From Candidatus Rokuibacteriota bacterium (lineage in GTDB: Bacteria > Methylomirabilota > Methylomirabilia > Rokubacteriales > JACPHL01), in contig JACPHL010000166.1 of the NCBI GenBank assembly GCA_016188625.1, positions 1 to 9,377 on the forward strand: 9,377 nt of DNA, in the 5' to 3' direction. The notes under the pieces were generated by a model, which saw only the letters and a list, made by a program, of their open reading frames with translations, had not been told where the DNA came from and did not search any database. A program made the translations under genes and the position numbers. Positions 114 through 5,846 of this stretch are shown piece after piece. Each line of letters begins with the position of its first letter. Position 1 is the first letter of the stretch.

Positions 114-902
114 TCAGAGGACGCCGGGGACGAAGGGGAGGCCGAGGGCGAGGCCGACCCCCCAGAGGGCGAACAGGACCCCGGCCGGCTTCGTGATCCA
201 CCCACCCCACGAGACCGCCTTCTCGGCGAACATCACCGCGCCGAGGAGGAGCATCCAGCCGAGGTTCACCCCGCCGACCGCGAACATCAGGAGCATCAGG
301 GCCCAGCAGCACCCCACGCAGAAGACCCCGTGGCGGACCCCCAGGGCGAAGGCCGCCCACCGGCGATCTCCCCCGTGCCAGTGGCTGGCCAGGAAGCCCA
401 CCGGTGAGCGGCACTCTCTGAGGCAGCTGTACTTGAGGGGCGAGAACTGGAACAGGCCGGCGACCAGGAGGGTCGCCGCGAGGATATAGGACTCGTACGA
501 CGCGAGCCGCCCGGCCCGCTCGACCGCCTCGTGGATGACCGTGTCGCCGAGGAAGGCGACCAGCCCGAACCCGGCCCACATGACCAGGTAGCCCGCGATC
601 AGGAGGCCGAGGTCCCGGCCGGGGCGCTCGCGCCGCCGGGTGATCGTGCGGAAGACGGTCACCAGCGGCAGGCTCGAGGGGAGCATCATCGCCACCGACA
701 TCACGAGCCACCCGGTGACGAAGATGGCGAGCCGCGCGCCGTAGGGGAGCGCGGTGGAGTCGATGGCGACCTGGTGGTCGAGGTAGCCCGCGTAGGGCGA
801 GGCCCCGACCAGGGCCAGCGCCAGCCAGGCCCCGACCACCAGGGCCGCCATCGTGGCGGCGAAGAGGAGCCGCTCCGCCCACTCCTCTGCCGTCGCGCTC
901 AC
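114..902 (-). CDS. DUF2182 multi-pass membrane protein (predicted metal-binding)
   Basis: This is a 262-aa integral membrane protein with about seven hydrophobic segments (roughly residues 12-33, 57-78, 97-118, 136-156, 183-205, 209-226 and 239-257). It matches the DUF2182 family, described as predicted metal-binding membrane proteins. Recognisable landmarks are MMLPSSLPL (72-80), FSPLKYSCLREC (153-164) and GVRHGVFCVGCCW (188-200). Conserved-looking Cys and His residues (C160, C164, H174, H176, H191, C195, C198, C199) cluster in or near the membrane and could bind a metal; that is inference. The start is GTG at 902 with no clear Shine-Dalgarno. The next ATG (851) would cut into the first helix, so GTG is preferred. 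The gene lies 36 bp downstream of the DUF1326 gene on the same strand, a pairing common in other genomes. The biochemical function is unknown. Confidence 0.88.
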   Translation of the reverse strand: MSATAEEWAERLLFAATMAALVVGAWLALALVGASPYAGYLDHQVAIDSTALPYGARLAIFVTGWLVMSVAMMLPSSLPLVTVFRTITRRRERPGRDLGLLIAGYLVMWAGFGLVAFLGDTVIHEAVERAGRLASYESYILAATLLVAGLFQFSPLKYSCLRECRSPVGFLASHWHGGDRRWAAFALGVRHGVFCVGCCWALMLLMFAVGGVNLGWMLLLGAVMFAEKAVSWGGWITKPAGVLFALWGVGLALGLPFVPGVL

Positions 903-938: not shown

Positions 939-1544
939 CTACGCCGCGAAGCGGAAGTCGCCCTGGATCGCGTTCCGGCCCTGGAACGTCCAGGTCATCC
1001 CGTGCTTGGGGATGTTCACTTTGTGGCTCGAGGCCTTGGCGACCCACGCCGGTGCGCCCGGGATGGTGCTGAAGATCGTGTCCGACAGGGTGGTCACCCG
1101 GCCGTCCTTGTCGGTGTAGGGCGCCAGCTCGGCCTCGACCACGTCGCCGATCTTGAGCGTCCCCTTCCCCTTCTCGAGCCGGAAGTCGAAGGGGGCGGAG
1201 TAGACGCCGACCACCTCGCCGACGAGCTGGGCCAGGTCGCCGAGCGGGCCGCCGAGCTTGCCGGCCCAGGCATCGACGAGGGCCTCCTTCTGCTGGGGGC
1301 TGGCCTTCTGGTCCACGTAGAGGGCGAGCTTCCAGTTCCCCTTCAGGATGTTGCCGGGGATGTGGGCGATCCCGGCGATGTGGAGCCCGGAGACATTGAC
1401 CCCGCGGACCGTCCCCTTGTCGATCCGGTAGGCGATGAAGGCGTCGCAGGTCCCCTTGTCCGGGTCCTCGCCGATCCAGCAGGGACAGAGGACGTTGCAA
1501 GAGCAGGCCTCGAGCAACGAGCCTTGCAGTTCGTAGGCAGCCAT
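939..1544 (-). CDS. DUF1326 domain protein with N-terminal cysteine motif
   Basis: This 201-aa soluble protein matches the DUF1326 family in length and in its N-terminal signature, EACSCNVLCPCWIGEDPD (residues 12-29). The signature carries C14, C16, C20 and C22, with C33 just after. No signal peptide or membrane helix is visible, so a cytoplasmic location is likely. The open frame extends upstream to 1763. ATG at 1544 is chosen because GGGAGGA sits about 5 nt before it, the family begins at this point, and the upstream extension has no protein-like character. The gene is first in a two-gene unit with the DUF2182 membrane protein. A sigma-54-like promoter lies about 120 nt upstream (1677-1692). 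The cysteines suggest metal or thiol chemistry shared with the membrane partner, but no activity is established and I assign none. Confidence 0.9.
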   Translation of the reverse strand: MAAYELQGSLLEACSCNVLCPCWIGEDPDKGTCDAFIAYRIDKGTVRGVNVSGLHIAGIAHIPGNILKGNWKLALYVDQKASPQQKEALVDAWAGKLGGPLGDLAQLVGEVVGVYSAPFDFRLEKGKGTLKIGDVVEAELAPYTDKDGRVTTLSDTIFSTIPGAPAWVAKASSHKVNIPKHGMTWTFQGRNAIQGDFRFAA

Positions 1545-1676: not shown

Positions 1677-1692
1677 TGCAAATGACCTACCC
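1677..1692 (-). promoter_or_regulatory. candidate sigma-54 promoter for the DUF1326-DUF2182 unit
   Basis: Read on the minus strand, the sequence is GGGTAGGTCATTTGCA. It has the required GG (1691-1690) and GC (1679-1678) exactly 10 nt apart, with a full TTGCA -12 element. The -24 element is imperfect against TGGCACG: the first T is G, the C at position 4 is T, and the C at position 6 is G. Transcription would start near 1666, giving a leader of about 120 nt before the DUF1326 ATG. It is weaker than the rightward site. Confidence 0.42.
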
Positions 1693-1765
1693 TGCCCTTC
1701 TACACCGACCCGGCCGAGGGCGTCAAGGGGAAATTTCCCGCGTGGACGACACAATAACCGCACAT

Positions 1766-1799
1766 CCGACCCGGGTGGAGACGCCTCGCCGACCCGGGT
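1766..1799. repeat. paired CCGACCCGGGT direct repeats, candidate enhancer sites
   Basis: The 11-bp sequence CCGACCCGGGT occurs exactly twice, at 1766-1776 and 1789-1799, 23 bp apart (about two helical turns). Each copy contains the 8-bp palindrome ACCCGGGT. A partial third copy, CCGACCCGG, is at 1705-1713. The second copy lies inside a wider dyad, CGCCGA (1787-1792) with TCGGCG (1802-1807). The pair lies roughly 100-135 bp upstream of the leftward predicted start and 145-180 bp upstream of the rightward one, the usual range for sigma-54 activator binding sites. Binding by the regulator at 2947-4308 is inference. Confidence 0.5.
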
Positions 1800-1917
1800 T
1801 CTCGGCGTGGCAGTTTGTCACACCCGCGCGCAGGAACGCCCCACCGGAACGGGGCGCACGGGCGGGCCGGCGGTGGAATTACGCGTTTTCCCTACGACTG
1901 GAGCAATCGACTGGCCC

Positions 1918-1933
1918 TGGCATCGCCCTTGCT
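1918..1933 (+). promoter_or_regulatory. sigma-54 (-24/-12) promoter for the DUF1344-like gene
   Basis: TGGCATCGCCCTTGCT matches the consensus TGGCACG-N4-TTGCW at all but two positions of the -24 box. Spacing is exact: GG at 1919-1920, ten bases, then GC at 1931-1932. Transcription would start near 1944, leaving a leader of about 37 nt that includes the AAGGAGGT ribosome binding site. A sigma-54-dependent activator is encoded nearby (2947-4308). A weaker sigma-70 alternative overlaps it (TTGCTT at 1929, TTCAAT at 1951). Confidence 0.65.
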
Positions 1934-1980: not shown

Positions 1981-2241
1981 ATGAAGTGGATGGTGCGGAT
2001 GGCTGTCGTCGGGCTCGCCCTGGCGGTCCTGGTGGGGGCGGCCTGGGCCGGGGAGGTCACCGGGAAAATCCAGAAGGTGGACCAGGAGCAGAAGATGTTC
2101 GTCCTCGAGGACGGCACCCAGCTCTTCGCCCCTGAGGGCCTCTCCCTCGAGAAGCTGAGCGAGGGGACGAAGGTGAAGGCCTCCTACGAGGAGCGGGACG
2201 GCAAGAACTGGGCCACCGCCATCGAGGTCGTCAGCGAGTAG
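1981..2241 (+). CDS. small secreted DUF1344-like protein
   Basis: This 86-aa protein has a classical signal peptide: positive residues at 2 and 6, a hydrophobic core at about 7-20, and a probable signal peptidase I site after AWA (residue 23). The mature part is about 63 residues and begins GEVTGKIQKVDQEQKMFVLE. A small beta-rich fold follows, of the pattern in which a charged linker alternates with 'LEDGTQLFAPEG' and 'GTKVKASYEERDGK'. This fits the DUF1344 family of small periplasmic proteins, whose function is not known. AAGGAGGT ends 5 nt before the ATG, so the start is secure. It is transcribed divergently from the DUF1326 gene, under a sigma-54-type promoter, and ends at a strong terminator. 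The promoter and nearby two-component operon suggest an inducible envelope protein; this is inference. Confidence 0.85.
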   Translation: MKWMVRMAVVGLALAVLVGAAWAGEVTGKIQKVDQEQKMFVLEDGTQLFAPEGLSLEKLSEGTKVKASYEERDGKNWATAIEVVSE

Positions 2242-2318: not shown

Positions 2319-2947
2319 TCACCTCGTAAGCCAGTGCCCGTACCCCGCCCCCTCCAGGAACCGCCGGATGGCGGCGGTTGGGACGACAGAGGTCTCGCCT
2401 GGGACCGGGAATTCGACGCTCGCCCTGGGGTCGCCGCGAAGCGTCATCCGGGCGGTCCGGTACCCCTCCACCACCCCGATCAGCCGGCCGCTCGCCGCGT
2501 CGAAGACCCCGCCGCCACTCGCCCCGTAGCTGACCGAGGCATCGATCATCACCGCCGGCCCCAGCGACTCCTCCCCCCCTTCGCCCGCGCCGGAAGGGCG
2601 AGGCCATCCAGGCGGACGAGGGCCAGGTCGGCCTCCCGGGCCGTGGCGAGGAGGACGGCCTTCAGGCGCGGCCCGCGGCGTCCGCCGGGGACGACGTACA
2701 GCTCGGCGCCCTCCAGGCCCTCCAGGGAGTGCGCGGTGGTGAGGACGAAGGAGCGAGGCGGATCGGTCTCGGCGTTGATCACCACCCCCGACGAGGAGCG
2801 GAGCCTCACCCCGCCCCGCTCCGTCACGACCTGGACAGTCTGGCGGAGGATCCGGCGGATGACCTCGTCTTTGGACGGTTGCGAGGGAGCCGAGGCGCAG
2901 CCCAGGAGCGCGAGGGCGAGGCCACCCAGGAGGAGCCGCCGCGCCAT
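2319..2947 (-). pseudogene. trypsin-like serine protease, lipoprotein; frame broken at a G7 run
   Basis: Two overlapping frames together encode one about 209-aa trypsin-like protease. The first (ATG at 2947, stop at 2549) carries a lipoprotein signal (LALLGC, Cys17), the catalytic His in LTTAHSLEG (H73) and the Asp in READLALVRLDG (D107). The second (from about 2579 to 2319) carries the Ser in SYGASGGGVFD (S144 when joined). Adding one G to the seven-G run at 2573-2579 fuses them into a continuous chain, AKGGEESLGPAVMIDAS, of normal family appearance. The three catalytic residues need both halves. There is no PDZ domain. It is the third gene of the kinase operon; its ATG overlaps the regulator's stop by 1 nt (TGATG), so translation is coupled. 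It would act outside the inner membrane. Three explanations remain open: assembly or sequencing error, true inactivation, or -1 slippage at G GGG GGG. An annotator might call two genes, 2549-2947 and 2319-2552. Confidence 0.8.
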
Positions 2948-4308
2948 CACTCCCCCGTCGCGGGGCCGCCGCGCGCCAGGAGGCGGTAGAGGGTGCGCCG
3001 GTCCACGCCCAGGATCTCCGCGGCCCGCTGCTTGTTCCCTCCCACCTCCCGCAGGACCTTGGTCACGTACCACCGCTTGACCGCCTCGAGGGTCATCCCC
3101 TCGGCGGGGAGCGCGGGGCCACGGGATGCGAGAGGGACCGACTCGATCACGAGATTCTCGGGGGTCAGGACAGGGGCCGACGAGAGCGTCGCCGCCCGCG
3201 CGATCACGTTCTCCAGCTCGCGCACGTTCCCGGGCCAGTCGTGAACCATCAGGCGCTCCACGGCCGCCGGCGCGATCCCGCGGGGCGGGGCGTTCGGCTC
3301 GCGGGCGAGCCTCTCGAGGAAGTGGTGGGCGAGGAGAGGGATGTCCTGACGGCGCTCGCGGAGCGGCGGGATCTGCATCGTGACGACGCTCAGCCGATAG
3401 TAGAGGTCCTCCCGGAACTCCTCCGCCTCCACGCGCCTCTTGAGATCCCGGTTGGTCGCGGCGAGGACCCGGACGTCCACCGGGATGGTTTCCCCGCCTC
3501 CCACCCGCCGGATCTGGCGCTCCTGGAGGACCCGGAGGAGCTTGGCCTGGAGGGCCAGCGGGAGGTCGCCGACCTCGTCGAGAAAGATGGTCCCCCCGTG
3601 GGCCGCCTCGAACAGCCCCCGCTTGGTCGTCACGGCGCCGGTGAACGCTCCCCGCTCGTGGCCGAAGAGCTCGGACTCGAAAAGGGCCTCGGGGAGCGCG
3701 GTGCAGTCCACTGGGACGAAGGGGCGGTCCGCCCTCGAGCTACCGTAGTGGATGGCGCGGGCGATCAACTCCTTCCCCGTTCCGGTCTCCCCCTGGATCA
3801 GGACGGTGGCGTCGGTCACCGCGGCCCGGGCGACCAACCGGTAGACCTCCACCATCTGCGGCGACAGGCCGACGATGTTCTCGAACCTGTACCGCTCCCG
3901 GAGCTCCTGACGGAAGCGAAGGTTCTCCTCGAGCAGGCGCCGCTGCTCGAGGACACGACGAACGACGAGCCGGATCTCCTCCATCCGGAACGGTTTCGAG
4001 AGATAGTCGTAGGCCCCGGCGCGGATCGCCTCGATGGCGGTCTCGATGGTCGCGAAGGCGGTGAGGATCAGGACGGGGACCTGCGGGCGGAGGGCCTGGA
4101 GCTGGCGCAGCACTTCGAGCCCGTCCAGGTCGGGCATACGGAGGTCCACCAGGGCGAGGTCCACCGGGACCAAGCCGGCCAGTTCGACGCACTCGCGACC
4201 CCCAGCGGCGACCCGGACCTCGTACCCCTCCTTGGCGAGGACCTCCGCGAGGAGATCCCGGGCGACAGGGTCATCGTCGGCCACCAGGATCAAGGGGGCG
4301 GGGATCAC
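2947..4308 (-). CDS. NtrC-family sigma-54-dependent response regulator
   Basis: This 453-aa regulator has the full three-domain layout. The receiver (about 5-120) has acidic residues D11-D13, phospho-acceptor D55 in ALVDLRMPD, T83 and K105. The sigma-54-interacting AAA+ domain (about 145-372) has Walker A GETGTGKE (173-180), an intact GAFTGA loop (220-225), Walker B IFLDEV (241-246), and REDLYYRL with WPGNVRELEN as sensor II. A C-terminal Fis-type helix-turn-helix (about 405-445) has GNKQRAAEILGVDRRTLYRL. All activity residues look intact. The start is GTG at 4308, overlapping the kinase stop as GTGA; GGAGG lies 7 nt upstream and the receiver begins at once. A longer open frame to 4536 is only out-of-frame kinase sequence. 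When phosphorylated it should remodel sigma-54 RNA polymerase closed complexes. The sigma-54-like promoters at 1677-1692 and 1918-1933 are the obvious local candidate targets (inference). Confidence 0.95.
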   Translation of the reverse strand: MIPAPLILVADDDPVARDLLAEVLAKEGYEVRVAAGGRECVELAGLVPVDLALVDLRMPDLDGLEVLRQLQALRPQVPVLILTAFATIETAIEAIRAGAYDYLSKPFRMEEIRLVVRRVLEQRRLLEENLRFRQELRERYRFENIVGLSPQMVEVYRLVARAAVTDATVLIQGETGTGKELIARAIHYGSSRADRPFVPVDCTALPEALFESELFGHERGAFTGAVTTKRGLFEAAHGGTIFLDEVGDLPLALQAKLLRVLQERQIRRVGGGETIPVDVRVLAATNRDLKRRVEAEEFREDLYYRLSVVTMQIPPLRERRQDIPLLAHHFLERLAREPNAPPRGIAPAAVERLMVHDWPGNVRELENVIARAATLSSAPVLTPENLVIESVPLASRGPALPAEGMTLEAVKRWYVTKVLREVGGNKQRAAEILGVDRRTLYRLLARGGPATGE

Positions 4309-5846
4309 CCGGCCGCCTCCACGCCAGGGAAGGCCAGGACGAAGGTCGTCCCTTGCCCCCCCGAACTCTCCACCTCGATCGCCCCGTCGTGCTCCCGAAC
4401 CATCTGCTGGGTGATGAAAAGGCCGAGCCCGACACCTTTGCCCAGTTCCTTGGTCGTGAAGAACGGATCGAAGATCTGTTTCAGGTGGTCGGGGCGGATC
4501 CCCGGCCCGGTGTCGCTGATCCGGACCTGCGCCCACTGTCGCCCGTCGCGGCGCTCCGGTCGAGTGGCGACCCTGAGGTGGCCGCCGGCCGGCATGGCAT
4601 CGAGGGCGTTCACGATGACGTTCAGGAACGCCTGCTGGAGCTGCTGGGGGTCGCCGGCGACCGGCGGAAGGTCCCGGGCAAGGTCGGTCTCTACGCTCAC
4701 CCGGGCCGCGGCGACCCCCGGGCTCACGAGGTCAAGGACCTCGCTGAGGAGGCTATTCAGGCCCACGGCAGTGTGCTCCCCCGCCGGGCGCCGGGTCAGG
4801 TCCTGGAGCTGCTCGATGGTCTCGCCGACGCGGAGGAGCTGGGACCGGACGATCGCGAGCCGGCGCTCGGGGGCGCCCTGGAGGACCTCGGGGGGAAGCT
4901 CTTGGCGGAGGAGCTCGAGGTGGCCGGCGATGGAGTGGATCGGGGTCCCGACCTCGTGGGCGATCATCCCCACTGTGCGCCCCATCAGGGCCAGGCGCTC
5001 GGCGTGGCGGAGGCGACGCTGGGCCTGGAAGAGGAGCTCGTTCAGGCGCCGGACCTCGGCGTAGCGCTCGGCCAGCTCCGCCGTGGCCTGCCGGACCCGC
5101 TCCTCCAGCTCCTCACTGGCCTGGGCGAGCAGCTCGAGCATCTGATTGAAGTGGTTCGCCAGCCTGCCGAACTCGTCGTTCCGGCTCAGCGCAACGCCGG
5201 TGGAGAGATCGCCCCGCTCCGCCCGCTCTATGGCCCGGAGGAACTGCCGGATCGGTCGGTCCACCACCCTGTGGACCACCAGGCCCATCAGCAGGACCAC
5301 GACCAGGATCGAGGCCCCCGTGATCCCCAGCGCGGTCCAGCGGATCTGGGCCGCCAGGCGGTCGGCCTCCACCAGCGAGAACTCGACCGCGACGGCCCCG
5401 GCCACAGCTCCTTCCAGGAGGATGGGGGCGACGACTTCCCAGCTCCGGCCCTCGGGCTTGGCGACGAGCTGAGCGACCACCCGGCCGCGCTCGAGCTCTC
5501 TGACCTGGTGGAGCGTGAGCGGGGGACGCCAGGCGGGGTCGCTGGAGGCCAGGAGCCGGACCCAGGGCCCTCCGAAGGCCAGGAAGTCGATGTTCTGGAC
5601 GTTGGCCCGGGCCTCCCGGATCCGCTCGATCTCCAAATCGAGAAGCCGGGTGTTCTCGAACTCGCGACGGTCCCCGATGGTGGCGGCGACCTCGCGGGCG
5701 AAGGTGATGGCGCGCCGGCGGAGGTCGGTCTCGACCCACCGCTCGGAGAGGTGGAGCGAGGCGGCGGTGAAGGCGAAGGAGACGGTGACCAGGAGGAGGA
5801 GGCTCGAGAGGATGAGCTTGCTCCGAACGCTCAGGCGAGGCCGCAT
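4305..5846 (-). CDS. membrane sensor histidine kinase, partner of the NtrC-type regulator
   Basis: This 513-aa sensor kinase has an N-terminal membrane helix (about 11-31), a periplasmic sensor domain of about 140 residues (32-168) that looks Cache-like, and a second helix (about 172-193). A HAMP domain (about 194-246) and a coiled coil (about 240-283) follow. The HisKA domain has phospho-acceptor H297 in GMIAHEVGTP. The HATPase domain has an N box (FLNVIVNALDAMP, N413), a G1 box DTGPGI (445-450), an F box FDPFF (459-463) and a G2 box GKGVGLGLF (469-477). Every catalytic box looks intact, and there is no PAS domain between HAMP and HisKA. The layout resembles ZraS/HydH and AtoS kinases that phosphorylate sigma-54 activators. 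Its ATG at 5846 lies about 15 nt from a predicted sigma-70 start, and no clear Shine-Dalgarno is seen. Its stop overlaps the regulator's GTG. The ligand cannot be told from sequence. Confidence 0.94.
   Translation of the reverse strand: MRPRLSVRSKLILSSLLLLVTVSFAFTAASLHLSERWVETDLRRRAITFAREVAATIGDRREFENTRLLDLEIERIREARANVQNIDFLAFGGPWVRLLASSDPAWRPPLTLHQVRELERGRVVAQLVAKPEGRSWEVVAPILLEGAVAGAVAVEFSLVEADRLAAQIRWTALGITGASILVVVLLMGLVVHRVVDRPIRQFLRAIERAERGDLSTGVALSRNDEFGRLANHFNQMLELLAQASEELEERVRQATAELAERYAEVRRLNELLFQAQRRLRHAERLALMGRTVGMIAHEVGTPIHSIAGHLELLRQELPPEVLQGAPERRLAIVRSQLLRVGETIEQLQDLTRRPAGEHTAVGLNSLLSEVLDLVSPGVAAARVSVETDLARDLPPVAGDPQQLQQAFLNVIVNALDAMPAGGHLRVATRPERRDGRQWAQVRISDTGPGIRPDHLKQIFDPFFTTKELGKGVGLGLFITQQMVREHDGAIEVESSGGQGTTFVLAFPGVEAAG

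Follow-up and report, generated by a model that had tools for sequence, protein, structure and literature searches.

A predicted sigma-54 promoter and candidate enhancer before an exported DUF1344 protein gene, linked to an adjacent NtrC-type two-component system in the order Rokubacteriales

The intergenic region before the DUF1344 gene of this Candidatus Rokuibacteriota contig quite probably carries a sigma-54 promoter and an enhancer through which the adjacent histidine kinase (HK) and NtrC-type response regulator (RR) would drive expression of the exported DUF1344 protein; a further, leftward promoter does not enter into this estimate. The predicted promoter, the candidate enhancer and these genes are tied to one another by comparison of related loci. 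In the window (the whole stretch of 9,377 nucleotides that was analysed), the DUF1326 and DUF2182 genes run leftward and the DUF1344 gene runs rightward, facing the lipoprotein, regulator and kinase genes. The features are as follows.

114-902, minus strand: membrane protein of the DUF2182 / PpoB2-type copper-chaperone family (PF09948, E 1.3e-64); DUF2182 is now named PpoB2, copper chaperone, in Pfam
939-1544, minus strand: DUF1326 gene, 201 aa, with a Cys-rich N-terminal part (PF07040, E 1.9e-55)
1677-1692, minus strand: candidate leftward sigma-54 promoter GGGTAGGTCATTTGCA, ~148 nt before the DUF1326 ATG
1766-1776, no strand assigned: repeat copy 1, CCGACCCGGGT, put forward as an enhancer in the sequence-only reading
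1789-1799, no strand assigned: repeat copy 2, CCGACCCGGGT, 23 bp from copy 1
1806-1822, no strand assigned: candidate upstream activator site (UAS), the 17-bp palindrome CGTGGCAGTTTGTCACA (CGTGGC-AGTTT-GTCACA), beginning 112 bp before the -24 element
1837-1843, no strand assigned: proximal half-site CGCCCCA, counterpart of a conserved CGCCACA in aligned upstream regions
1883-1896, no strand assigned: AT-rich block GCGTTTTCCCTACG, by alignment the counterpart of a conserved GAATTCGCT-like block
1918-1933, plus strand: predicted sigma-54 (-24/-12) promoter of the DUF1344 gene, TGGCATCGCCCTTGCT, its first base 63 nt before the ATG
1981-2241, plus strand: DUF1344 gene, 86-aa exported protein, the promoter's predicted target (PF07076, E 7.8e-8)
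2319-2947, minus strand: trypsin-like lipoprotein gene of the cassette, in two reading frames in the window
2947-4311, minus strand: NtrC-type RR, probable activator (PF00158, E 4.4e-72; PF00072, E 2.8e-31; PF02954, E 6.2e-9)
4305-5846, minus strand: HK, probable partner, with periplasmic Cache (sCache_3) sensor, HAMP, HisKA and HATPase domains

Two back-to-back sigma-54 promoters and a repeated element between them had been proposed in the sequence-only reading, and TGGCATCGCCCTTGCT, GGGTAGGTCATTTGCA and both copies of CCGACCCGGGT were found exactly where that reading had placed them. The window was scored with a 16-position sigma-54 matrix, the frequencies of which were approximated from the published consensus; the right-hand site (~15 bits) ranked first and the left-hand site (~12.5 bits, 12.3-12.7) second in the whole window. 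For the right-hand site, first-order Markov versions of the intergenic region gave a site scoring at least as high on the relevant strand with a probability of 0.002. This site has the features of a sigma-54 promoter, namely a TGGCAN-type -24 element, a TTGC -12 element and the correct spacing, and it is conserved across orthologues: in cassette relatives, 50-97 nt separate an equivalent site from the start codon, and TGGC and TTGC are invariant in the alignment with relatives. The rpoN gene, on which the earlier proposal depended, was found in the genome (E 7e-62), and the pattern TGGCAYN5TTGCW occurs 17 times genome-wide versus 2 for the reversed control pattern; a sigma-54 regulon is therefore plausible in this organism. 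No sigma-70 promoters were found in 1500-2400. The rightward sigma-54 promoter is a well-supported prediction.

The palindrome at 1806-1822 is imperfect, with 10/12 matches to TGTGGC-N5-GCCACA (p = 0.003 in shuffles), and perfect versions are present in L150, L152, L153, L154, L155, L170 and L232. At cassette loci TGTGGC-N5-GCCACA begins 88-113 bp upstream of the -24 element, at -110 to -112 in seven relatives, as in the window, and at -88 to -103 in others. It thereby fits the pattern expected of an NtrC-type enhancer, a palindromic site ~70-150 bp upstream that is conserved together with the regulator. According to the upstream alignments, the palindrome in relatives is often followed, ~13 bp on, by the CGCCACA half-site. 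Near the consensus -24/-12 promoters of this genome, no further site of this kind besides the window palindrome was found; the other 16 consensus -24/-12 sites were considered as further targets and ruled out, since all have at most 9/12 palindrome matches. Among the papers listed by a literature search for the palindrome, none was relevant. Between the UAS and the promoter, a GAATTCGCT-like block is conserved in most relatives, which is perhaps the site of a bending protein or of a second regulator.

The conserved cassette comprises DUF1344, the trypsin-like lipoprotein, the NtrC-type RR and the Cache-domain HK, and the cassette HK is present in 22/60 genomes of the order. Near DUF1344, the regulator is 62-69% and the kinase 46-53% identical, with 54% and 37%, respectively, in the more distant L170. 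Usually, and also in the window, the DUF1344 gene is convergent with the protease, RR and HK genes; in L148, L151 and L228-L232 it lies after them and is read the same way, and in L149 it is divergent from the kinase gene. A -24/-12 site together with the palindrome was found at 20 of the 22 cassette loci, the window included, versus none of the 14 DUF1344 loci lacking this RR (Fisher p ~3e-8, relatedness uncorrected; p-values here are optimistic because loci of one order are not independent). L144, where the contig ends before the regulator and the kinase is located on another contig of the same genome, was counted as a cassette. The promoter is strong and the palindrome weak in L145 and L148 (9 and 7 of 12), and weak -24/-12 scores were obtained at some cassettes (6.2 in L160 and 8.5 in L149). 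L156 and L158 have a less related OmpR-like regulator instead, and both elements are missing there.

A joint rule (sigma-54 score of at least 6 plus a palindrome with at least 10/12 matches at the right distance) gave 21 matches in 797,972 strand-bases, 19 of them directly before a DUF1344 gene; the remaining ones are in L170 (a receiver-domain gene, then DUF1344) and L233 (another small exported protein beside HK-RR). The motif was built on the first locus set; L228-L233 were added and scored only later, and the five cassettes L228-L232 all fit it. The HK relatives from the GTDB collection all came from other lineages, and no DUF1344, DUF1326, DUF2182 or protease gene was found near them.

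The regulator contains a receiver, an AAA+ sigma-54 domain and a Fis-type HTH, and GAFTGA, GETGTGKE and GGTIFLDE can be read in its translation; it thus has the GAFTGA, Walker A and Walker B motifs that such an activator needs. Control by the NtrC-type activator that the sequence-only reading had noticed ~1 kb away is supported by the linkage of RR, palindrome and promoter across relatives. The HK and RR are presumably partners, because their genes are adjacent and overlapping. A structure model of the predicted HK sensor resembles the sensors of WalK, CitA and KinD. NtrC-type activators are phosphorylated, oligomerise and, through a DNA loop, use ATP to bring sigma-54 polymerase into the open state. 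From the comparison we infer binding, phosphorylation and transcription along the same lines: the Cache-domain kinase would sense an envelope signal, probably periplasmic, and phosphorylate the regulator; a regulator oligomer would bind the palindrome, probably with the half-site at 1837-1843; DNA looping would bring it into contact with sigma-54 RNA polymerase at 1918-1933, and the GAFTGA loop and ATPase would open the promoter. Before the HK-RR genes, no sigma-54 site reached 7 bits with the same matrix.

Several other explanations of the region were weighed against this one. Bare GG-N10-GC is found at 12 places in the 436-bp intergenic region, both strands counted, and is for that reason uninformative, which might suggest chance resemblance in GC-rich DNA; for the right promoter such a reading is already contradicted by the conservation of promoter and palindrome in position, sequence and gene linkage, and its probability is negligible. 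It is improbable, at a somewhat higher level, that the right promoter is sigma-54 dependent and is activated by another enhancer-binding protein, the linked HK-RR having other targets. NtrC-type regulators usually number several per genome, which speaks for this alternative, as does the fact that binding by the RR is deduced from linkage; against it, the palindrome tracks the linked RR across the loci counted above, even where the target gene is a different one, as in L233. The full proposal of the sequence-only reading, in which the nearby regulator acts from the CCGACCCGGGT repeats on both promoters, seems less probable still. The repeats are real and correctly spaced, and CCGACCCGGGT has 8 copies genome-wide, 2 of which are in this intergenic region. 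However, ACCCGGGT is present in 0/15 related upstream regions examined, most of which keep the promoter, and a different palindrome, at 1806-1822, is conserved at a similar distance instead; judged by sequence comparison, it is therefore unlikely that the right promoter is activated from these repeats. The pair could be a site for another regulator or a local duplication. A conspicuous local repeat can thus mislead enhancer assignment, and comparison finds the more probable site.

The same proposal also required the left promoter, for which a nominal P of 0.008 for an equal or better site was obtained in Markov versions of the intergenic region. Alignment of related intergenic regions upheld the right promoter and neither the left site nor the repeats: a comparable left-facing site is missing from most relatives, the best among cassette relatives scoring 8.8 bits (L157, genome G006). 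Upstream of DUF1326 orthologues, likewise, nothing comparable was found within a promoter-like distance; the best upstream score was 1.4 bits in the 81%-identical orthologue, and one 13.7-bit match was located 547 nt upstream in that of L007. These orthologues (57-81% identical) were tried as a route to the shared intergenic region and rejected, their neighbours being different. At no other neighbourhood examined do DUF1326-DUF2182 stand beside the cassette. Of the proposed back-to-back promoters under a shared enhancer, the right promoter and control by its probable activator are supported, and the repeats as enhancer are not. Control in both directions from the palindrome, of DUF1344 rightward and DUF1326-DUF2182 leftward, would extend the preferred explanation and is no alternative to it. 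The palindrome is roughly midway between the two -24 elements, with 104 bp from its centre to the right-hand one and 122 bp to the left-hand one, and the matrix score of the left site is in its favour; the lack of conservation of that site, and a DUF1326 neighbour seen only here, speak against it, and we hold it to be a minority prospect. In G006, two divergent DUF1344 paralogues have -24/-12-like sites around one shared palindrome (L157:6539-6718), so that two-directional use of the enhancer has a candidate precedent. With one matrix match in one genome, the left promoter and two-directional control of DUF1326-DUF2182 are possible but unproven. That the left promoter was recruited to the enhancer of the right one, and solely in the present lineage, can be entertained at about the same, rather low, level. 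Slightly more doubtful is that DUF1326-DUF2182 came to lie beside the cassette and were captured by its enhancer, so that one sensor would control divergent genes, for an OB-like exported protein on one side and a metal-handling pair on the other. If true, regulon capture through one sigma-54 enhancer shared in both directions could be traced here.

Returning to the preferred reading, with the adjacent HK-RR driving DUF1344, the closest parallel in design is ZraS/ZraR-ZraP (HydHG) of Escherichia coli, in which a membrane kinase and an NtrC-type regulator adjoin a sigma-54 gene for a small periplasmic protein. ZraSR has few targets, namely zraP, zraSR and mgtA (PMC7657598). The window regulator resembles ZraR and likewise appears to have few targets. 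In contrast to ZraSR, the predicted target is a DUF1344 beta protein and no ZraP-type gene, the cassette includes a protease lipoprotein gene, and the predicted binding palindrome is different; the RR and HK also fall below the ZraR/ZraS family cut-offs (397.2 of 760 and 143.1 of 479 bits). By analogy, the window system may work like ZraSR/ZraP, and by the tested features it is not a member. The best NCBIfam scores of both proteins were with AtoC and AtoS of E. coli, though below the curated cut-offs (504.7 vs 714 and 216.4 vs 646 bits), and the linked genes differ from those of AtoSC. The solved structure closest to the RR by sequence is 4l4u, an NtrC-family regulator (E 1.8e-113). The NtrC-family regulators NtrC1 and NtrC4 of Aquifex aeolicus share the domain order of the window RR. 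The enhancers of NtrC (TGCACC-N5-GGTGCA) and NifA (TGT-N10-ACA) are likewise palindromic upstream sites that act on -24/-12 promoters from ~100 bp, whereas the core here is TGTGGC-N5-GCCACA. The main text of a 2025 survey of sigma-54 regulons mentions neither DUF1344 nor Rokubacteria, Methylomirabilota or NC10 (PMC12316311).

The DUF1344 protein has an N-terminal signal-like stretch followed by a predicted five-strand beta structure, and weak matches of the model suggest a small, OB-like beta protein. A role in metal binding was considered, as the OB-like model weakly resembles the CusF/SilF copper/silver chaperones (E 0.002-0.003, none <0.001), and it is not claimed because no conserved Met, His or Cys was found in the mature part. 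DUF1344 (1981-2241) also has weak, sub-threshold similarity to ExtJ of selenite/tellurite reduction operons. In the open-access literature searched, DUF1344 turns up in just two papers. The uncharacterised family now gains a regulatory context, made up of a predicted sigma-54 promoter conserved through an order, a predicted binding motif and a dedicated two-component system; motif and promoter lend themselves directly to binding and reporter tests. In the neighbouring trypsin-like lipoprotein gene a frameshift was located near 2550-2590, and both parts match one open frame in relatives, which points to either an assembly error or a pseudogene.

Some loci depart from the common pattern. In the more distant genome of L170, a stand-alone receiver-domain gene lies between the palindrome and promoter on one side and DUF1344 on the other (L170:6366-6871, minus strand). 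Genome G015 (L233:4518, minus strand) has an orthologous HK-RR, and beside it a weak promoter and the palindrome stand before the gene of another small exported protein (..FQCPKLIKQ..); the target may have been swapped here. L164, L165 and L167 carry DUF1344 without this RR and have other sigma-54-like sites, so that promoters of this class also occur apart from this RR. A common site, GGGCACG..CATTGCT, is present in these three at about -97, with a different palindrome, GTAACG-N5-CGTTAC, in L164, and such sites perhaps belong to a second regulator of the same family.
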